Position numbers and translations under genes: made by a program. Below the pieces are notes generated by a model. That model saw only the letters and a program-made list of their open reading frames with translations, searched no databases and was not told the DNA's origin. A stretch of 38,535 bases of DNA from NCBI GenBank assembly GCA_003554615.1, contig PWGX01000043.1, positions 1-38,535 on the forward strand, written 5' to 3'. Below, one piece after another: positions 1-24,668 of the stretch; the stretch's first letter is position 1; the number at the start of each line of letters is the position of its first letter. This DNA comes from Syntrophomonadaceae bacterium. GTDB taxonomy: Bacteria > Bacillota > Dethiobacteria > DTU022.

Positions 1-2
1 AG

Positions 3-32
3 TTGTCACAATGAAGAAAATTTTTTTATAAT
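3..32 (+). promoter_or_regulatory. Predicted sigma-A promoter for the first small gene
   Basis: A -35 TTGTCA (3-8) and a -10 TATAAT (27-32) are separated by 18 bases. They read towards the small gene at 140. The match to the vegetative consensus is visible directly; activity is inferred. Confidence 0.5.
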
Positions 33-139
33 AAGCTAGGTTCTATGTTTTCTATGGGGGAAGATCTTGGATTTTTAGTTTTTTCTGATATATTTTTACT
101 ATTTTCTGGGATGAATAATACTTCCAGGAGGTGATTTAA

Positions 140-301
140 ATGTTCAAAGTAGGCGATAAAGTTAAATCAAGATTTGGCATAGAGTATGAAATCATAGCAA
201 TAACAGCCAACAATAAGTATGAATGCAAGCGACTTAGCGACGGCAAGGTAATCAAATTGGCTGAAGACAAATTAATCAAACCTAAACCGGAAACAGCTTG
301 A
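140..301 (+). CDS. Small hypothetical protein, 53 aa
   Basis: I do not recognise this family. The ATG is preceded by a near-perfect ribosome site, AGGAGGTGA at 126-134, with five bases between, so translation is very likely. The product is short, lysine-rich and soluble, opens MFKVGDKVKSRFGIEYEI and has no signal peptide or cysteine pair. The alternating hydrophobic pattern after VGDKV, then a basic segment, resembles small SH3-like or KOW-like beta-barrels that bind nucleic acid or protein; this is only a fold impression. A predicted promoter lies at 3-32, and a bidirectional terminator lies about 90 bases after the stop, so it is probably a single-gene transcript. Confidence 0.75.
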   Translation: MFKVGDKVKSRFGIEYEIIAITANNKYECKRLSDGKVIKLAEDKLIKPKPETA

Positions 302-390
302 CTCTATTATGTGAGCTAGCTGTTTGTTAGTTGCCGAGCTGTGGTTCGAACGATCTGACACAGATTTCGGCCTATTTCGAGCAAAACAAA

Positions 391-431
391 AAAGCCCCGG
401 ATGAAGCTAAATTTAATGCTTCCCGGGGTTT
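391..431. terminator. Bidirectional intrinsic terminator
   Basis: The arms CCCCGG-AT-GAAGC and GCTTCCCGGGG form a strong hairpin with a two-base bulge. A T run follows on the plus strand (428-433) and an A run precedes it (383-393), so it can end both the plus-strand small gene and the minus-strand tRNA-Val transcript. Confidence 0.8.
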
Positions 432-436
432 TTATT

Positions 437-511
437 TGGTGGGGACGGAGGGTTTTGAACCCACGGCCTCTTGAATGTGAATCAAGCGCTCTCCCCCTGA
501 GCTACGTCCCC
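437..511 (-). tRNA. tRNA-Val (anticodon CAC)
   Basis: The minus strand folds as a complete cloverleaf with an encoded CCA end. The acceptor pairs GGGGACG with CGTCCCC, the D stem is GCTC/GAGC, and the anticodon stem CTTGA/TCAAG encloses the loop TTCACAT. Loop positions 34-36 are CAC, which reads the valine codon GUG. The T stem GTGGG/CCCTC has one U-U mismatch, which is unusual but tolerable. A terminator lies directly downstream at 391-431. Confidence 0.9.
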
Positions 512-585
512 ATTTTTTTATCAAAGCTTATATCATAAAGTATAACACAATATTTTTACAGGAGAAAAGATGAAACAACAATAAT

Positions 586-843
586 TCACCTGGGGAGCAT
601 ATACTTAACTTTAAATTCAGCTTCCCGTCCTTCTTCAATTTCTACCAGGATGATATCTTTTTCTTTCATCATTTTTTTCATAACATAACAGCACTGGGGG
701 AGCCTGTGTTTTCTTTCGTAAGCTCCCCACACTAACCGGTGCAAAGAGCCGGCATCTATATCAATATGAGTTCGTCCTTTTTCAGCTGCCAGTCTAAGCA
801 CCTGCTGTAGTTTTTCCTGAAAGTCCTTCGATGTAGGTATCAT
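586..843 (-). CDS. Small conserved-looking hypothetical protein, 85 aa
   Basis: I recognise no named family. The ATG at 843 has GGAG eight bases upstream. The central segment (HIDIDAGSLHRLVWGAY, then CCYVMKKMM) mixes a DID/AGxLHR motif with a Cys-Cys pair, and looks like a small alpha/beta or winged-helix domain of the sort found fused to nucleic-acid enzymes; no function can be assigned. There is no signal peptide or membrane segment. It lies downstream of the DUF3303 gene on the same strand with a 92-base gap and may share its promoter at 1426-1454. Confidence 0.65.
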   Translation of the reverse strand: MIPTSKDFQEKLQQVLRLAAEKGRTHIDIDAGSLHRLVWGAYERKHRLPQCCYVMKKMMKEKDIILVEIEEGREAEFKVKYMLPR

Positions 844-935
844 TTTCTGACTCCGTTTTTACAATTTAGCTGTATCTGTTATATTACCTGTCTTTAATCC
901 AGGCTATCCCTATTATGCGATCCTGGAAAACATGC

Positions 936-1202
936 TTAAGATATTTGAGTTCCCTTGTCATCTTTTATTTCCACAACCGGAAAGATCTCGAAATGGCACA
1001 AATTGCTCCAATGAAGCGACCACTTAAAACATTCCCTGGCTGAATCAGCTTCGATCAACCATATAGACCTTCCTCCAGATACGTCCAACCATTCTCCCAG
1101 GATTGTTATCCCTTTAGGAGTCAGCCTTCCCTCTTCCATTCTCTTGTTGACAATCTTGTCCCTGTTTTGAGGAACCCAGGTGCCAATAAGAATTAAGCGC
1201 AT
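936..1202 (-). CDS. DUF3303 family protein, 88 aa
   Basis: The chain resembles the DUF3303 family of small ferredoxin-like-fold proteins. It has an N-terminal strand (MRLILIGTWVP), a central GITILGEWLDVSGGRS followed by a strand with an E-A-D turn, and a WSLHWSNLCHFEIFPVVEI end. The family's function is unknown. The start is well supported: AAAGGAGG lies six bases before the ATG at 1202. Length fits the family (about 80-100 residues). A consensus-like promoter at 1426-1454 reads in this direction, so this gene and the one at 586-843 probably form a short unit. No catalytic residues can be named. Confidence 0.75.
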   Translation of the reverse strand: MRLILIGTWVPQNRDKIVNKRMEEGRLTPKGITILGEWLDVSGGRSIWLIEADSARECFKWSLHWSNLCHFEIFPVVEIKDDKGTQIS

Positions 1203-1249
1203 GATTAACCTCCTTTACAAAGTTAAATGCTCGCGTGCCCACACTCATA

Positions 1250-1417
1250 TCACAGGCACTTTACTACAGCCCTAGCTTCGGTCCGGCTGTTAATTAAAAA
1301 ACATTGCCAGAAAGGCTTATACCCATCATATATACCGTTGCTTCCGTAGCCACAGTACCTGCAAAACCGGGCAAAAGAAACTTTAAGCTGTAAATCAGTG
1401 TAAAAATGCGAGATCAT
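1250..1417 (-). CDS. Possible 55-aa cysteine-rich small protein
   Basis: This reading frame is uncertain. It has a C-x2-C pair (RFCRYCGYG) and two further cysteines (FWQCF and VVKCL), with aromatic-rich spacing that looks protein-like and could bind a metal. There is no Shine-Dalgarno site. However, the strong promoter at 1426-1454 should start transcription at about 1419, so the ATG at 1417 would lie almost at the RNA 5' end, as in leaderless messages. It may instead be a relic or a chance frame in a 500-base stretch without other genes. Confidence 0.3.
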   Translation of the reverse strand: MISHFYTDLQLKVSFARFCRYCGYGSNGIYDGYKPFWQCFLINSRTEARAVVKCL

Positions 1418-1425
1418 TTGAGAAA

Positions 1426-1454
1426 ATAATATCAATTTTCAATAATTTTGTCAA
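1426..1454 (-). promoter_or_regulatory. Consensus-like sigma-A promoter
   Basis: On the minus strand a perfect -35 TTGACA (1449-1454) is followed after 17 bases by TATTAT (1426-1431). It reads towards the 55-aa frame, the DUF3303 gene and the gene at 586-843. Only one base differs from the full consensus. Confidence 0.7.
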
Positions 1455-1510
1455 TGCTAGCTTCTAATATCACTGAAGTTTCCGTTCTTCTGCGGTTTTT
1501 CCTTAACAAA

Positions 1511-1548
1511 AAAATTGAAGCAGGGGGACCAATTTCCCTGCTTCAATT
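1511..1548 (-). terminator. Intrinsic terminator after msrA
   Basis: A perfect 13-bp stem (AATTGAAGCAGGG at 1513-1525 and its complement at 1536-1548) is followed on the minus strand by a T run (1507-1514 read in reverse). It lies about 160 bases downstream of msrA and is the likely end of the 6.9-1.7 kb transcript. The stretch 1549-1705 holds nothing else I can recognise. Confidence 0.8.
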
Positions 1549-1705
1549 CAACTATTCTCACCTTGCGCTCAAACTGCTTAAGAACAGATCCCACCAACCG
1601 GAGACTGCTTCTTTGAGGGTTCCTCTTTGCTTATGCAAGGGTTTCTTCAATTTCAGCAGTAAATTATTTCAGGTCAGAACAAAAACTTATCTAATACAGC
1701 CTGTT

Positions 1706-2593
1706 CTAATAGACTGCATCCTGAATTATTTTTTCCCCGCGATCGGAAAGGCCATAGCGATTCAGTTCTTTTTCCACCAGGGCCGGATCTCCATAGCCGC
1801 CGGCAATGCCATTTAAGCGGGCGGCGACTGTAGAATTGACCAGTCCTTCGATCTCAGGGTAATAGGCCTTTATTTCAACCGCCAGCTTCTCTACATTCTG
1901 CAGGTAATATTTCTGGTGGTAACCTTCAGCAAGGTAGAACTTATCAAGGGGCTGGATCTCGGTGGACACAGGCTTGCCCAGGCACTCTTCCACTGCTTTT
2001 TTACTCTGCCTGGTCGCTTCGGCCTGGCCTTCATTGTGATAAAGGACCATGGCCATGTACTGCCTGGACCAGCTCCTTGCGGTCGGATTGTGATTGGTCC
2101 AGAAGATCTCCAGGATGTCTTCATAAGACAAGACATTGGGATCATAATCGATCTGAAAAACTTCAGTGTGATCACCAAGGCGGTGGTAAGTGGGATCTTC
2201 CAGGGTGCCACCGGCATAACCGACCCGGGTCCTGTAAACTCCTTCTATTTGCCCGAACCGGGCATCAGGTCCCCAGAATCAGCCCATACCCAGGGTCGCC
2301 GTTTCCAGTTCGGAAGGCACACCCTGATCCAAAAGAGGCTTAGATTCATTTATGTATGCTTTTTCCATACTATCTTCTTCCTTTCCGTTTCCATAATCAA
2401 GACCGGTTTCTACAGTTTCACTTCCATTATATCTTTCAACACAACCAGCGCCAAACAGCAAAGCAAAAACCACTATGCAGCTCGTTAATATAAGTAAAAA
2501 CTTCCCGGACCTGGCCGGCAGGCCAAAATTTTTAGTAACGGCAAATGGGCCACTTTTCTTGCCTTTGGAAGTCCGGGCTGTATTACCATTCAT
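1706..2593 (-). CDS. msrA: Selenocysteine-containing lipoprotein MsrA (UGA at codon 105)
   Basis: Peptide-methionine (S)-S-oxide reductase, which reduces methionine-S-sulfoxide in proteins. The frame opens at ATG 2593, ten bases inside the preceding gene's end, with GGAGG eight bases upstream. Residues 31-51 form a hydrophobic signal ending in the lipobox LFGAGC, so the enzyme should be an extracytoplasmic lipoprotein anchored at Cys51. At codon 105 (2279-2281) a UGA stands exactly where MsrA carries its catalytic cysteine (GMG-U-FWG). The frame continues without interruption through RVGYAGG, YHRLGDHTEVFQIDYDP, FWTNHNPT and YHQKYY to residue 295. A small GC-rich hairpin follows the UGA, as bacterial SECIS elements do. 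Known MsrA selenoproteins exist in clostridia and algae. The alternative is a Cys-to-stop mutation; the intact flanks on both sides argue against it. A conventional gene caller would split this gene into two. Confidence 0.87.
2250..2264 (-). promoter_or_regulatory. SECIS-like hairpin downstream of the msrA UGA
   Basis: In the mRNA, UGCCCG-GUU-CGGGCA folds as a six-pair stem with a three-base loop that begins with G. The loop starts 20 bases after the UGA, within the range usual for bacterial SECIS elements that bind SelB. The pairing is visible; its function is inferred. Confidence 0.6.
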
Positions 2594-5324
2594 CCCTGAT
2601 TGCCTCCAAATCGCTTTGAGCAGTATCATAATAACCGTCTTCTTCAGCCACTTTTTTATAATAATAGATGGCGCTGTCATAATCCCCCAGCAGGTAGTGG
2701 GCCCTGCCCAGCGCAAAAGCAAGGGGCTCAATTTCTCCATAGTATTCCTTGATAAGCGGTTCTATTTCAAAAATTTCCTTAAGGTAGCGCTCTGCCTGCG
2801 CATATTCACCTTCCTGCATTAAAAATTCCGCCACCTGTAACCGGGATATGGCCGGTTGCCGGTAACTGCCTTCCACAAACGGTCGCAGTTCAATCAAAGA
2901 ATCCAGGTATTTTAAGCCTTTTTCAACATCTACATACTGCAGGAGCAGGCTGCCATAACGGGATACATAGCGTGGATTGAATGGCTCAAGCTCATAAGCA
3001 CTTTCGGCCAACACTAACATCTCTTCAATTTCTTCGGGGGACTGGGTCCTGCGGACCCGATCCTCAATTAAGACGTTCAGGTTGTGATAATTGTCTGTCC
3101 GGTAGGGATCTGTACGCAGAGCGCTTTCCATCTCCGTCATAGCCTGTTTGTAGTTACCTCTTTCCATGTGCTCCTGCGAACGCCAGGTGGCATAGAGGCC
3201 GTGGATAAGGGAAATAGTAAAGGCAAGCAGGACCACCCCTGCGATAATCCCGCCCAGGCCGATATAAAAGCCACGCCTTTCAACCTGGCGGTTGTCCTTA
3301 GGCTGCCTGCCAAACCAGCCTCCCCGGTCAAGGCTGCGGCCGGCGCCCAGCAAAACAAATAGAAAGATACCTACGGCAGCCATTGAAAAGTTCCAGTCAA
3401 TGACGCTGTGCGCGCCCAGGGCTGCGACAGGGATAAAGGAAGCAGTCCAGTGCTGCCAAACTTTTTGAGAAACATTTTGCCTGACACAATTGCGAATAAA
3501 AGCTGCGGCAAAACTGACCCAAATTCCCGTAAAGGCAAGAAATCCAAACAGGCCGGCTTCGATCCAGACCTGCAGGAAATGATTATGCACTTCAGTGGAG
3601 CTATAAGGGAAGCCCTGATAGCTGCGGTAAAGCGCATTCCATCCTCCACCACCCGTACCAAGAAGAGGGTAGTCCCTGATGATCTTGGCGGCATCGACGT
3701 AAAAATCAAGGCGTCGCTCAAGGTTTCGATCTAAGGAATATGAGAAAAGGCGGTCGTAAAAACGGTCAGGCAGAACCCGGTTAAAAGCAAAACTCAAATT
3801 TTGTTCTCTGTCAGCACCTGTAAGGGTAACATCCCGGGCAGCAACAGAAGTGCCGGGATAGCGGTTATAAATTTGCACCACCAGCCTTAAAGGTTCATCA
3901 CCGGTATTAAAAGTAAACTCTCTTGTTTCCCAACCGTCGGTTCCGCCTCCGCGGTGGTCAAATACTTCAACATCCTTGTAACCTTCCACTCCTTCAAGCA
4001 CTCTTACTCCCCAGGCATAGCCGGTGGAGTCATGATCAGAAGTGGTTTCTTCATCGGCGTTTATTTCCAGGGCCAGCCTGTATTCTCCTCCCGGAACCAC
4101 ATCACCGACCACCTGCTCGACTCTTTGCATTTCTGCTTCCTGTTCTGCTCCCCGCTCAAGATGAATGGGCCCCGTAGCGGGAAGAACGATCAATGCCACA
4201 AAAGCAATCACAAATACTGCAGCTGCCGCACCGGCCAGGGCAAGCCGAACTTGGCGGCTCCTGCTGAGATAAAATTCAGCACCAAGCCCAAGGAGGACTG
4301 TGCCGGCCAGAGCAATAACTATTATTATCCAGGCCCGGCCCGGCTCTCCGGCTCGGAAAGAAGGGTCGGCCAAAAAAGCAGCCGGAACTGCCGCTGCTGC
4401 TGTAACGGCCAGGTATAAAAATGAGCGCAATCTTTCTCCAGGGGAAGCAACAACGATCAGTAAAATTGCCAGCGGGGGAAGAAGCAGCCAGGCTCCCCGG
4501 GAAAAGGTTAAAATTACGGTCACCAGCATCAGGCTGGCCGGGATGAGGTAAATAATTTTATGCCATTTATTTGCCGCCAGCGGGGCAAGCCCGAGCGCCA
4601 GCAAATAAGCAGCCATCAGATAGGCGGCGGCCGTATTGGCATAGCCCATCGGTGAGGCAATACGGGCTGAGGCGTAAGTTCCGGCAAATTCCCAGTAACC
4701 GGCAGCAGCGCCCAGGCTGGCTATGGTAACAACAAAAGCCGCCCCCAGACAAAAATGAAGCAGTAAATTTAAACCTGGTGGCAGGCCAGATCTATCTTCC
4801 TCTTTAACCATATTTGCCTGAGTGGGTTTATGATCCGGATTGCCAGGTAATTTCTTTAAAGGAAGGTACCAATAACGGCTTATTTCAATGGCAGCAAGAT
4901 AAACAACCAGGTAAGAAGCAATTTTTAGCAGTTCTTCCAGGGCATCACGCTTGTGGACGGCAACAAAGAAAGAAACGAGGTAAGCAAGCAGTAAAACAAC
5001 CAGGCATATATCAAGGGGAGATTCAATCAAGCGCCCATCCCGGGAAGCTAAGCGAAAATAGCCCCAGACGATCAACAGGCCAAAAATAACAGCTTTGGCG
5101 GCTAACAGTTCGCGCGGAAAAAACAAACCGCGTTCAAAAGGCCCGATAAATAGCAATCCCGATACCACCGCCAGCATAACAATTAGACCTGCTTTTTCGA
5201 TCCACTGCCTGCGATGATCAGAATTTTTTATCCCGCCCTGTCTTTCTTTACCTGGGCTATCTTTCTTTAAAGCTTTCTTCGTCTGCTTATTCTTTTTCTC
5301 TTTGCCTGATCCTTTACGCGGCAT
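2583..5324 (-). CDS. O-antigen ligase-like membrane protein with TPR tail, 913 aa
   Basis: A Wzy/WaaL-type polysaccharide ligase or polymerase, expected to act at the membrane on lipid-linked glycans or to modify cell-surface polymer or glycoprotein. A very basic N-terminal tail (residues 1-45) precedes about ten hydrophobic segments. The signature HNHFLQVWIEAGLFG near residues 577-592 is the conserved O-antigen-ligase motif. Between roughly residues 385 and 520 lies a large soluble beta-rich insertion. After the last membrane segments, residues from about 715 to the end form tetratricopeptide repeats ending in GRAHYLLGDYDSAIYYYKK. The ATG at 5324 is chosen over an in-frame TTG at 5336 because GGAGGG overlaps that TTG and sits four bases before the ATG. 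It overlaps the selenocysteine msrA downstream by about ten bases, suggesting translational coupling. Confidence 0.85.
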   Translation of the reverse strand: MPRKGSGKEKKNKQTKKALKKDSPGKERQGGIKNSDHRRQWIEKAGLIVMLAVVSGLLFIGPFERGLFFPRELLAAKAVIFGLLIVWGYFRLASRDGRLIESPLDICLVVLLLAYLVSFFVAVHKRDALEELLKIASYLVVYLAAIEISRYWYLPLKKLPGNPDHKPTQANMVKEEDRSGLPPGLNLLLHFCLGAAFVVTIASLGAAAGYWEFAGTYASARIASPMGYANTAAAYLMAAYLLALGLAPLAANKWHKIIYLIPASLMLVTVILTFSRGAWLLLPPLAILLIVVASPGERLRSFLYLAVTAAAAVPAAFLADPSFRAGEPGRAWIIIVIALAGTVLLGLGAEFYLSRSRQVRLALAGAAAAVFVIAFVALIVLPATGPIHLERGAEQEAEMQRVEQVVGDVVPGGEYRLALEINADEETTSDHDSTGYAWGVRVLEGVEGYKDVEVFDHRGGGTDGWETREFTFNTGDEPLRLVVQIYNRYPGTSVAARDVTLTGADREQNLSFAFNRVLPDRFYDRLFSYSLDRNLERRLDFYVDAAKIIRDYPLLGTGGGGWNALYRSYQGFPYSSTEVHNHFLQVWIEAGLFGFLAFTGIWVSFAAAFIRNCVRQNVSQKVWQHWTASFIPVAALGAHSVIDWNFSMAAVGIFLFVLLGAGRSLDRGGWFGRQPKDNRQVERRGFYIGLGGIIAGVVLLAFTISLIHGLYATWRSQEHMERGNYKQAMTEMESALRTDPYRTDNYHNLNVLIEDRVRRTQSPEEIEEMLVLAESAYELEPFNPRYVSRYGSLLLQYVDVEKGLKYLDSLIELRPFVEGSYRQPAISRLQVAEFLMQEGEYAQAERYLKEIFEIEPLIKEYYGEIEPLAFALGRAHYLLGDYDSAIYYYKKVAEEDGYYDTAQSDLEAIRDEW

Positions 5325-5506
5325 ATTTCCCTCCAACGTATGGTTTACGGGTATGTAGCTTTCTACACTGACAACCTCGTTCCTTCTTTATGGAAATGGC
5401 TGCCCGAAAGCAGTACGAGCAGCCATGTCTATCTCATTTCGCTGGATCACTATTCCCCTAATTCACTTGCTCGTCCTGATACAGGAACTCACACTGAGCG
5501 TCAAAG

Positions 5507-6937
5507 CTAATCTTCATATATATCATCCGGGACATTGTCCTCATAAGTGTTGTCATCGGGGTCGCGAAATTCCAGAACCGCGTCCTCCAGAAGATATACA
5601 GCGCCGCCATTACTGGCCCGGTTGCCTTCAAATATATTATTGTTTAAGGTTATAACCGCTCCAGGAGCAGCATATATTCCACCACCATTACGCCTGGCAT
5701 CGTTATTGCTGATATTATTATCTTCAATTAACGGCGAAGCGTCCTGGATGTAGATGCCGGCACCATTGCGCTCGGAGTTGTTACCCGTTAGATCATTGGC
5801 TATTAATTCCGGGGTCGAACCGTCAATAATAACCATTCCCCCGCCATTACGGGATTGGTTATCTGAAATAACATTGTTTTCAAAGCGGGGGTCGGAATCC
5901 ATAACAATCATAACTCCACCGGCGGCATCGACAGCATCGTTGCCAACGATCATGTTGTCTTCAAAGAGGGGAGACGATTCGAACAAGATAGCAACCGCAC
6001 CTCCCCTGGATTCAGCGGTATTATCATTGAGATCATTTCCTGAAACGAACGGGGACGCTTTAAACACATAGATACCACCGCCTGCCTGGTGAGAGGTATT
6101 GTCAATAATCATATTGTTAACCAGGTTGGGCTCAGCTTCAAAAATCGAAAAACCAGCACCGTTTTGAGCACGGTTCTCCGAAATAGTATTGCCCTCAAAA
6201 GTGGTAGGCTCTTCACCGCCGCCACTGACTGCAACTGCTCCGCCGCTTCTTTCGGCAACATTGCCGGATATTTCATTGTTGCTAACCTCTACGCCGGAGG
6301 AATGGGCAACAAACAAGCCGCCACCTCCGCCTGTTGAGGTATTATCGTTTATATTGTTATTGTTAATAACCGGAGAAGAATCATGGATCATGATCCCTCC
6401 GCCTCTTTCAGCAACATTCTTAACCAAAGTGTTGTGCTCCACGGTGGGGGAACTTTCATTTATAATGATCATTCCTCCGCCGTAATAGGCTGTTTCTTCA
6501 CTGGTCTCCCCTTCGACAGTAAACTCAAGAGCGGTCCTTTTCCCACCACCTCCGGTGATCGTAAAGCCCGACATCACAGCCTCTTCACTCTCACCATTTT
6601 CAAAGGTAACCACGGATCCGGTGCGCCCGCCATCTATAATTGTCTGCTCCCTGACCCCCGGATCTTCCGGATCAGTAGTGCGAAGGGTTATATTTTTGCC
6701 CAGAAAGTTTATGTTCTCGTTGTAAGTTCCGGGACTGACCACGATCACATCTCCGTCTTCGGCTTCATCAATAGCTTCCTGGATTGTAGAATAGTCACCA
6801 GGGACTGTGATAGCACCTTCATCAACAGGACCGGTTCCGGTATCCTCACCACACCCGGAAAGCAAGGCAACCATTGTTATGAGCATAATTGCCGCCAGGG
6901 CAATGCCCAGGGGATGCCTGGTATTACCTGTATACAT
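5507..6937 (-). CDS. Right-handed parallel beta-helix lipoprotein, 476 aa
   Basis: A secreted repeat protein of the pectate-lyase-like (PbH1) superfamily. Residues 8-29 are a signal peptide with lipobox LLSGC, so it should be lipid-anchored outside the cell. A DUF1565-like start (ITVPGDYSTIQEAIDEAEDGD) leads into about eleven imperfect repeats of 25-27 residues of the type SSPxxxxNxIxxNxAxxxGGGxxI, the ladder of a beta-helix solenoid. I see no clear catalytic triad, so an adhesin, glycan-binding or structural role is as likely as a lyase. The start is set by GGAGGT six bases before ATG 6937. It lies upstream of the O-antigen-ligase-like gene on the same strand, separated by 182 bases that hold only a weak hairpin, so the two may share a cell-surface task. 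Confidence 0.85.
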   Translation of the reverse strand: MYTGNTRHPLGIALAAIMLITMVALLSGCGEDTGTGPVDEGAITVPGDYSTIQEAIDEAEDGDVIVVSPGTYNENINFLGKNITLRTTDPEDPGVREQTIIDGGRTGSVVTFENGESEEAVMSGFTITGGGGKRTALEFTVEGETSEETAYYGGGMIIINESSPTVEHNTLVKNVAERGGGIMIHDSSPVINNNNINDNTSTGGGGGLFVAHSSGVEVSNNEISGNVAERSGGAVAVSGGGEEPTTFEGNTISENRAQNGAGFSIFEAEPNLVNNMIIDNTSHQAGGGIYVFKASPFVSGNDLNDNTAESRGGAVAILFESSPLFEDNMIVGNDAVDAAGGVMIVMDSDPRFENNVISDNQSRNGGGMVIIDGSTPELIANDLTGNNSERNGAGIYIQDASPLIEDNNISNNDARRNGGGIYAAPGAVITLNNNIFEGNRASNGGAVYLLEDAVLEFRDPDDNTYEDNVPDDIYED

Positions 6938-6982
6938 TTAAAGACCTCCATTCTGCTCTACATTTTAGACATCTAAGATAAA

Positions 6983-7014
6983 GGTTTTCAGGCATTCCTA
7001 TACGCCCGAAAACC
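6983..7014 (-). terminator. Intrinsic terminator after tRNA-Ala
   Basis: On the minus strand GGTTTTCGGGC and GCCTGAAAACC pair (one C-A mismatch) and are followed by TTTATCTT. The hairpin sits seven bases after the tRNA-Ala CCA end. Confidence 0.65.
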
Positions 7015-7020
7015 CTTACC

Positions 7021-7096
7021 TGGTGGACGTGAGGGGATTCGAACCCCTGACCTCTTGAATGCGAGCCAAGCGCTCTCCCAACTGAGCTACACGCCC
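7021..7096 (-). tRNA. tRNA-Ala (anticodon CGC)
   Basis: A full cloverleaf with encoded CCA. The acceptor stem GGGCGTG/CACGTCC contains a G3-U70 wobble pair, the main alanine identity element. The anticodon loop CTCGCAT gives CGC, reading GCG. The T arm AGGGG-TTCGAAT-CCCCT is regular. Confidence 0.95.
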
Positions 7097-7106
7097 TCGC
7101 AGAGGT

Positions 7107-7135
7107 ATTATAGCAAATCGCGATCTATTAGGCAA
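7107..7135 (-). promoter_or_regulatory. Promoter of tRNA-Ala
   Basis: TTGCCT (7130-7135) and a perfect TATAAT (7107-7112) are separated by exactly 17 bases and end ten bases before the tRNA. Confidence 0.75.
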
Positions 7136-7166
7136 TACACCGCGATCACTCACTTAAAATCTTACC

Positions 7167-8818: not shown

Positions 8819-11562
<2,744 letters not shown>

Positions 11563-19831: not shown

Positions 19832-22654
<2,823 letters not shown>

Positions 22655-22658
<4 letters not shown>

Positions 22659-23422
22659 CTCTGTACCGCCTTTCGGGCAGCCTGGATCAAAGCACTGAAG
22701 GAATCGGCCTGCAGGCTGGCGCCGCCGACCAGGGCCCCCTGAATGGAATCAAACTCTACAAAGGAACCAATATTTCCTTCTTTTACGCTGCCGCCGTACT
22801 GGATGGGAATCTTCCCCGCCGTTTCCGATCCGCCTTCGTCCTGTAAAACCTGGCGGATAAAAGAGCAGGCGGAATCGGCGTCAGCGGGCTGGGCCGCCTT
22901 GCCGGTGCCGATGGCCCACACCGGTTCGTAGGCAATAACAAGGGATTTCATTTCTCCTGTTCCCAGGCCCTCCAGGGCGGCCAGGAGCTGTTCTTTGATT
23001 ACGCTGTTCGTGGAACCTGCTTCCCTTTCCGCCTCAGTTTCCCCGACACAGAGGATCGGCTTCAGGCCGCTTTCCAGGGCCGCTTTCACTTTATCCCTGA
23101 TCCGGGCGTTAGCTTCTCCCATAACATGCCGGCGCTCGGAGTGGCCGACAATCACGTATTCAACCCCTAGGTCCCGGAGCATGGAGCCAGATATTTCTCC
23201 GGTAAAGGCTCCTTCCTGTTTCCAGTGCAGGTCCTGGGCACCCAGATTCAGGGTACTGCCATTCAGGATCCCTGATGCTGTGGTAAGTGAAGTATAGGGC
23301 GGGCAAATCAGCACTTCCACTTCTCCAAACTGTTTTTCATCTTTCAAAATGGAACGGCAAAAATCAGCCGTTTCCCCGGTCGTCTTATGCATTTTCCAGT
23401 TGGCTACTATTATTAATCCCAT
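22655..23422 (-). CDS. tpiA: Triosephosphate isomerase
   Basis: It interconverts glyceraldehyde 3-phosphate and dihydroxyacetone phosphate. Catalytic residues are visible: Lys in ANWKMHK, His in YVIVGHSERR and Glu in IAYEPVWAIGTG; the phosphate loop is YGGSVKEGN and GALVGGASL. ATG 23422 is chosen, with GGAGG seven bases before it, giving 255 residues; the frame is open 50 codons further upstream but that part has no family match. The stop overlaps the gpmI start by four bases. Confidence 0.97.
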
Positions 23423-23480
23423 GATCAATCCTCCGTTAATTATGGGCAGCCGGAATCTAAACCGGCAGTTACACCCGTTT

Positions 23481-24668
23481 TCAGGTTTTATCCTGCAGAA
23501 CCTTGATGCCGGGCAGCTCTTTGCCTTCCCAGAATTCAAGGGTGGCACCCCCGCCGGTGGAGATGAAGTCAACCTTACCGGCCAGGTCCAAAGCTTCCAG
23601 GGCGGCTACCAGGTCGCCTCCCCCGACAACAGAATAGGCGTTGCTGCTGGCCACTTCGCGGGCGGTAAGCCTGGTGCCTTCATCGAAGGGAGGGGTTTCA
23701 AAAACCCCGAGCGGCCCGTTCCAGATGATCATAGCCGAGGTAGATATGTACCGGCCGAAGCTTTTAACCGTCTCAGGGCCAATATCGACCGCCTTCCAGT
23801 CCCCGCTTATGTCCTGCGGAGCCATCACTTCCGATTCACTGCCGGGTTTTAATTCCCTGGTTACCACCAGGTCATCGGGCAAAATAAGGCGGCAGCCGCT
23901 TTTTTCGCTTTCATTAATAATAGATTGGGCTGTTTCCAGCAGATCTTGCTCATAAAATGACTGTCCCAGGCTGTAACCCCGGGCGGCCAGGAAAGTATTG
24001 GCCATCCCTCCCCCGACCAGGAGGTGGTCGGTCAGCTGCAGGAACCGGCGCATAACATTAATCTTATCCGATACCTTGGCCCCGCCCAAAATAGCGGTTA
24101 GGGGGCGCTGCGGATTTTCCAGGCAGCGGGAAAGCTCTTCAATTTCCTTTTTCATCAGCAGGCCGGCTACAGCAGGAATAAATTCGGCCACCCCGGCCGT
24201 CGAGGCGTGGGCCCGGTGGGCGGTCCCAAAAGCATCGCTGACAAAGAGGTCCACCGGCTCGGCCAGCTGCCGGGCAAAATCCCGGTCGTTGCTTTCTTCA
24301 CCTTTTTCGAAACGAAGATTTTCCAGGAGCAGGATCTCCCCGCTTTTCATTTCGTCGACTGCCTTTGAAACCTCGGGGCCGAACACCCGGTCAAGCTTCC
24401 GCACTGGTTTGCCCAGCAGTTCGCCCAGCCTGTCCGCCACCGGATCCATTTTTAAACCAGGAACGGCCTCCCCCTTGGGACGGCCCAGGTGTGAAGCCAA
24501 AACCAGGGCCGCTCCCCGGGAGAGAAGGTTTTCAATGGTCGGCACAACCGCCCTGATCCGGGCATCATCCCGGACTTTGCCCTCCTCCAGGGGGACATTG
24601 AAGTCGGCCCGCAACAATATTTTTATTCCTTTAACATCGACATCTTCTATACTTTTCTTCTGCAGCAA
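23481..24668 (-). CDS. pgk: Phosphoglycerate kinase
   Basis: It makes ATP and 3-phosphoglycerate from 1,3-bisphosphoglycerate. Signatures are ILLRADFNVPLEEGKVRDD, LVLASHLGRPKGE, LLLENLRFEKGEE, SDAFGTAHRAHAST, the adenine-nucleotide region AILGGAKVSDKINV, and VGGGDLVAALE near the end. 395 residues is typical. The start is TTG 24668 with GGTGAT about seven bases before it; a nearby ATG is out of frame. It follows rpoN by 21 bases. The glyceraldehyde-3-phosphate dehydrogenase gene that normally precedes pgk is absent. Confidence 0.97.
   Translation of the reverse strand: MLQKKSIEDVDVKGIKILLRADFNVPLEEGKVRDDARIRAVVPTIENLLSRGAALVLASHLGRPKGEAVPGLKMDPVADRLGELLGKPVRKLDRVFGPEVSKAVDEMKSGEILLLENLRFEKGEESNDRDFARQLAEPVDLFVSDAFGTAHRAHASTAGVAEFIPAVAGLLMKKEIEELSRCLENPQRPLTAILGGAKVSDKINVMRRFLQLTDHLLVGGGMANTFLAARGYSLGQSFYEQDLLETAQSIINESEKSGCRLILPDDLVVTRELKPGSESEVMAPQDISGDWKAVDIGPETVKSFGRYISTSAMIIWNGPLGVFETPPFDEGTRLTAREVASSNAYSVVGGGDLVAALEALDLAGKVDFISTGGGATLEFWEGKELPGIKVLQDKT

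Follow-up and report, generated by a model that had tools for sequence, protein, structure and literature searches.

A probable selenocysteine MsrA gene with a putative lipoprotein signal and a conserved second start, predicted to supply two cellular compartments

The window, by which we mean the whole stretch of 38,535 nucleotides that was analysed, carries on its - strand a gene for the methionine-repair enzyme MsrA with a single in-frame UGA at the catalytic position (Table 1). This codon appears as TCA on the + strand at 2279-2281 and lies between two halves of one MsrA, and the reading frame is otherwise open from before the ATG at 2593 through to the TAG at 1706-1708. The Pfam PMSR match runs across the UGA (E 7e-40, model positions 1-150 of 153, with a single TGA within), which bears out two statements of the preliminary description, namely that the halves share one frame and are parted only by UGA at the catalytic Cys, and that the flanks of the codon are intact; both flanks are intact in relatives as well. 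The product scored 140.7 bits with PF01625 (cut-off 23.7) and 127.1 bits with TIGR00401 (cut-off 108.1), identifying it as an MsrA, and reached 21.7 bits with MsrA_helical (PF20939), slightly below the cut-off of 23.7 for that model. The PMSR domain covers residues 98-236 of the long form and is followed by the helical domain of selenoprotein MsrAs. A GGAGG Shine-Dalgarno (SD) sequence precedes the long-form ATG. Across the family, a Wzy_C/TPR gene is often the immediate upstream neighbour of Sec-msrA, a beta-helix gene being the other usual one. No further credible UGA-containing gene was found within the window.

Table 1. Features of the msrA locus, in coordinates of the window
Feature	Position	Strand	Details
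Wzy_C O-antigen ligase gene with TPR repeats, upstream of msrA	2583..5336	-	overlaps the msrA start by 11 bases
msrA(Sec), long form	1706..2593	-	ATG 2593-2591 to TAG 1708-1706; 295 aa; from N to C: lipoprotein signal, linker, MsrA domain, helical domain
Putative lipoprotein-type signal	2441..2593	-	basic N-region, hydrophobic core FLLILTSCIVVFALLFGAG, lipobox Cys51 (codon 2441-2443)
Internal Shine-Dalgarno region	2369..2386	-	GGAAAGGAAGAAGATAGT; precedes the second start
Second in-frame start, ATG	2366..2368	-	codon -29 from Sec; predicted short form of 220 aa
UGA, predicted to be read as selenocysteine	2279..2281	-	residue 105 of 295; catalytic position, GMG-U-FWG
Predicted bacterial SECIS hairpin	2250..2264	-	UGCCCG-GUU-CGGGCA; first loop base G; compensatory changes

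The conservation of the UGA was examined by searching 60 genomes in and around the genus for MsrA. The enzyme was present in 39 of these, and 19 of the 39, the window's own included, have a single in-frame TGA; within the order, the 19 genomes, again counting the window's own, show UGA at the catalytic column. Every MsrA found within the genus is of the UGA form, with one copy per genome and no other MsrA found there. The preliminary description had proposed aligning homologues at this column as a check, and the 86 fetched loci that cover it, a set that holds a few duplicates of one contig (L045 and L169, for example, are both the G002 contig), gave 53 TGA, 18 TGT, and 15 TGC codons, some of the TGA loci coming from MAGs of other species and phyla. 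UGA-form MsrAs occur in Bacillota, Thermodesulfobacteriota, Myxococcota, Synergistota, Verrucomicrobiota, and Planctomycetota, and the non-UGA homologues all have Cys at the column. A pseudogene, or a sequencing or assembly error that turned TGC or TGT into TGA, would sit well with the missing sel genes in the window's own assembly described below, but the same TGA is present in the separately assembled MAG of the sister genome (L045, from G002) and recurs in dozens of further genomes, both flanks are intact, and the SECIS hairpin covaries. Since no single error could strike the same codon in many species, a sequencing error or dead gene is refuted by this recurrence, and we regard its probability as negligible. 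Reassignment of UGA to Trp or Gly in this organism (codes 4 or 25) would account for the in-frame UGA and for nothing beyond it. Of the 22 other genes counted in the window, 8 terminate normally at TGA, and therefore UGA is not reassigned genome-wide; these stops in conserved genes refute the proposal, congeners have tRNA-Sec and SelB, and Cys stands at the column in all non-UGA homologues, leaving it a vanishingly small chance.

In a maximum-likelihood tree, 64 Sec rows and three Cys rows (L196, L197, and L200) fell on one side of a branch with support 100/99, and the remaining 35 Cys-MsrA rows stood apart. The clade with the helical domain is thus nearly all Sec (64 of 67 rows), and because it contains only three Cys rows, Cys would most simply be a rare, derived state there. 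Two of these, L196 and L197, appear to have a signal peptide and carry MsrB at the C-terminus; the SECIS hairpin is absent from them, and they represent natural Sec-to-Cys changes. In several Bacillota, MsrB (SelR domain) is fused before a Sec-MsrA with UGA at the catalytic column, as judged by Pfam for L192 and by eye for L057/L193, L195, and L201. These MsrB-MsrA(Sec) proteins and the MsrA(Cys)-MsrB proteins of L196 and L197 belong to the same MsrA subfamily as the window's enzyme, but they are joined to MsrB and are not lipoproteins. Many Verrucomicrobia also carry a Sec-MsrA, most with an apparent signal peptide (Verrucomicrobiales/Akkermansiaceae loci L056, L058, L060-L062, L064-L072, and L074-L078). 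No tRNA-Sec scored above the cut-off in the genome of L060, so that this MAG either is incomplete or has a divergent tRNA-Sec.

Directly downstream of the UGA lies a hairpin that fits the bacterial SECIS consensus features, with a G in a small apical loop just after the UGA (PMC1088965). The compact hairpin with a G-starting loop announced in the preliminary description is present and covaries, although its stem begins 14 rather than 15 nt after the UGA; the GUU loop begins 20 nt after it. Judged on its folding energy, the single hairpin does not stand out (z -0.5), and the evidence for it comes from comparison. Among 46 distinct Sec sequences, 84.8% of the cells pair in the hairpin, and 42 hairpin cells have changed on both sides, compared with 18.1 in shuffles, none of 500 of which was as high; controls with the register slid gave at most 9. 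The clearest covarying pair joins columns 23 and 27, where xGG codons are accompanied by TTC or CTC in 21 of 21 cases and CAG by TTT or TAT in 12 of 15. Ten verrucomicrobial sequences of the GAG type have the loop moved by one base, giving the loop AGUU. Under synonymous-codon shuffles that preserve the protein, Sec genes had a modest folding bias, with a mean z of -0.72 compared with about 0 for Cys genes (p 7e-5 for the difference). By this comparative sequence evidence, the hairpin is a bacterial SECIS element whose compensatory changes across 46 sequences are not due to chance.

A search of the same genome for selA, selB, selC, and selD had also been proposed, with a lack of selB or tRNA-Sec taken to speak against selenocysteine. 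None of the four genes was found in the window's own MAG (0.98 Mb, 983 kb; 71% complete), so that this lack is literally the case there, but the sister genome G002 carries all four, with selA, selB, and selD in one cluster. Across 11 congeners, selC was found in 10, selA in 8, selB in 8, and selD in 10, and the anticodon of tRNA-Sec is UCA in the five loci checked. The absence could mean that Sec decoding was lost in this one genome, leaving a recently orphaned Sec gene. The MAG, however, measures 0.98 Mb against 1.8-2.5 Mb for most congeners, and the 12.3-kb sel neighbourhood of G002, flanks included, has no match in it, whereas at other loci the two genomes agree to about 92-95%. That the whole neighbourhood is missing together with its flanks points to an assembly gap rather than to excision of the genes, and a second Sec gene is also open in the MAG; loss of decoding is accordingly very improbable, and the absence of the sel genes is best read as an assembly gap. 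This second UGA gene (L178, at G000:C54:33136-33933, truncated by the contig end) encodes the alpha subunit of a Tat-type formate dehydrogenase in which UGA occupies the classical Sec position, ARL-U-HSTTVAGLAATFGRG, and an FdhE-like ORF lies just upstream. Positions 1-7137 of the window are about 99% identical to G002 (98.8-99.5% over this region), compared with about 92-95% elsewhere, and the stretch may have recombined recently.

The nearest solved structures (4LWJ, 4LWK, 4LWL, 4LWM, 4U66, and 7C13) are all of the MsrA of Clostridium (Alkaliphilus) oremlandii OhILAs (CoMsrA), a native Sec enzyme of 209 residues and of the 1-Cys type that takes glutaredoxin, not thioredoxin, as its reductant (PMC4479559). 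The window's protein aligns with it over residues 95-290 against 6-202, helical domain included (E 4e-60), and shares the catalytic Sec within GUFWGPDA (the GUFWG motif being retained), Glu55, the helical C-terminal domain, and the lack of a conserved resolving Cys. No Cys is conserved in the Sec rows beyond the catalytic column, and the sole extra Cys of the window's MsrA is missing from the 99%-identical sister. CoMsrA differs in having Sec at residue 16 and no export signal, whereas the window's gene encodes about 90 additional N-terminal aa, in which the putative lipoprotein signal and the second start are found. The claim that Sec occupies the catalytic site is thus supported by the conservation of UGA across species, the covarying SECIS, the nearest structure, and the selA, selB, selC, and selD genes of congeners, and UGA 2281-2279 very probably encodes Sec in an MsrA (methionine-S-sulfoxide reductase) of the 1-Sec, C. 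oremlandii type, Sec insertion and activity being deduced by homology. SelB and tRNA-Sec would decode this UGA, aided by the hairpin just downstream; the selenolate would attack methionine sulfoxide and release methionine, and, because no resolving Cys is conserved, the Sec enzyme would then be reduced by an external thiol protein. As a Sec-MsrA, the protein is a further representative of an established family, and selenoproteins of this kind were already known. Gene-prediction programs that terminate at the UGA cut it in two, hiding the enzyme in the order and in several phyla.

The N-terminal extension has the features of a lipoprotein signal, with a lipobox, GAGC, that matches the PROSITE-type pattern at residue 51 and has an unusual Gly at -3. 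Although the sequences of order members diverge here, nearly all keep a basic N-terminus, a hydrophobic core, and the lipobox Cys, and all but one of the order's Cys-MsrAs are without a hydrophobic N-terminus. We infer that the Sec-MsrA of this order has a putative lipoprotein signal, lipidation being predicted from the motif. No selenoprotein with a lipoprotein signal was found described in the openly accessible literature searched. Whereas the preliminary description had the Sec core right, this signal and a conserved internal start went unnoticed in it.

The internal start lies in the weakly conserved linker that joins the lipobox region to the MsrA domain. An in-frame, SD-led start was found there in 18 of 18 order members examined, at codon -27 to -34 from Sec and most often at -31, with an SD of AAGGA, AGGAGG, or GGAGG in nearly constant register; two Tindallia genes have the same. 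Most of these order genes have exactly two SD-led starts, and the pair of in-frame starts is conserved across species. The internal start might nonetheless be incidental, the long lipoprotein form alone being made: among 527 control ORFs of these genomes, 26% have some start at codons 35-75 with an SD dG of -5.4 or lower (8.5% at -7 or lower), the internal SDs of the genus are moderate (-5.4 to -7.2 kcal/mol), and shuffling of linker codons gave p 0.33 for the window alone. The same shuffles gave a combined p of 9e-10 over genes that are only partly independent. The start also holds its place in all 18 members, its residue varies among Met, Val, and Leu while its codon is always ATG, GTG, or TTG, and the Lys and Glu codons from which the SD is built have G in third position in 16 of 16 cases, where each gene's own codon usage would predict roughly 40%. 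The product of these expectations, worked out by hand from per-gene codon frequencies, is near 1e-7 if the genes are treated as independent, which they are only in part. Exclusive production of the long form is therefore doubtful. Production of the short cytosolic form alone, with the upstream extension untranslated, would agree with the solved family member, which is of cytosolic length with Sec at residue 16, and with relatives without a signal, which have short N-termini. Long open extensions with a hydrophobic core are nevertheless found order-wide, nearly all with the lipobox Cys and usually with an SD-led start of their own, and the SD of the window's long start is stronger than that of its internal start (dG -9.3 versus -5.6), making this reading very unlikely. 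The use of both starts, as predicted from the sequences, is fairly probable.

We accordingly favour, with a probability of roughly 0.62, a reading in which one gene would give rise to a surface lipoprotein Sec-MsrA from the upstream start and a cytosolic Sec-MsrA from the internal start, so that in this order a membrane-anchored, extracytoplasmic form, needing an extracytoplasmic electron donor, would be made alongside a cytosolic one. The short form would be similar in length to the cytosolic CoMsrA and to signal-less relatives, and the export signal appears to have been added before an older cytosolic gene whose start was retained. The two-start lipoprotein form would be a new variant on a known Sec-MsrA core. 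Nothing on point was found on bacterial dual localisation by internal starts in the openly accessible literature searched. In eukaryotes, one Msr gene likewise serves several compartments through alternative N-termini, the isoforms arising from alternative first exons (PMC1431549); there the means is alternative splicing, whereas two ribosome-binding sites on one bacterial message are proposed here. Another parallel, extracytoplasmic methionine sulfoxide repair in a Gram-positive bacterium, is offered by SpMsrAB2 of Streptococcus pneumoniae, which uses Cys. This surface MsrA/MsrB enzyme is reported to work with the lipoproteins Etrx1 and Etrx2, surface partners of the thioredoxin family, and with CcdA (PMC3914529). 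In contrast, no thioredoxin, Etrx-type, or CcdA partner was recognised beside the window's msrA when the neighbouring ORFs were read. If both forms are made, a single Sec gene, the only MsrA found in the genus, would cover two compartments in soda-lake anaerobes, and it would become a testable question what reduces an exported selenoenzyme that lacks a resolving Cys once it lies beyond the membrane, where one would not expect to meet the glutaredoxin that reduces CoMsrA in vitro.

Elsewhere in the window, a gene for a Fur-family regulator directly precedes one for a KatG-type peroxidase (8819-11562), an oxidative-stress pair in an apparent anaerobe. A run of glycolytic genes encoding PGK, TIM, iPGM, and enolase occupies 19832-24668 on the - strand, in which the listed frames of PGK and TIM share 92 bases; the TIM start is probably overlong.
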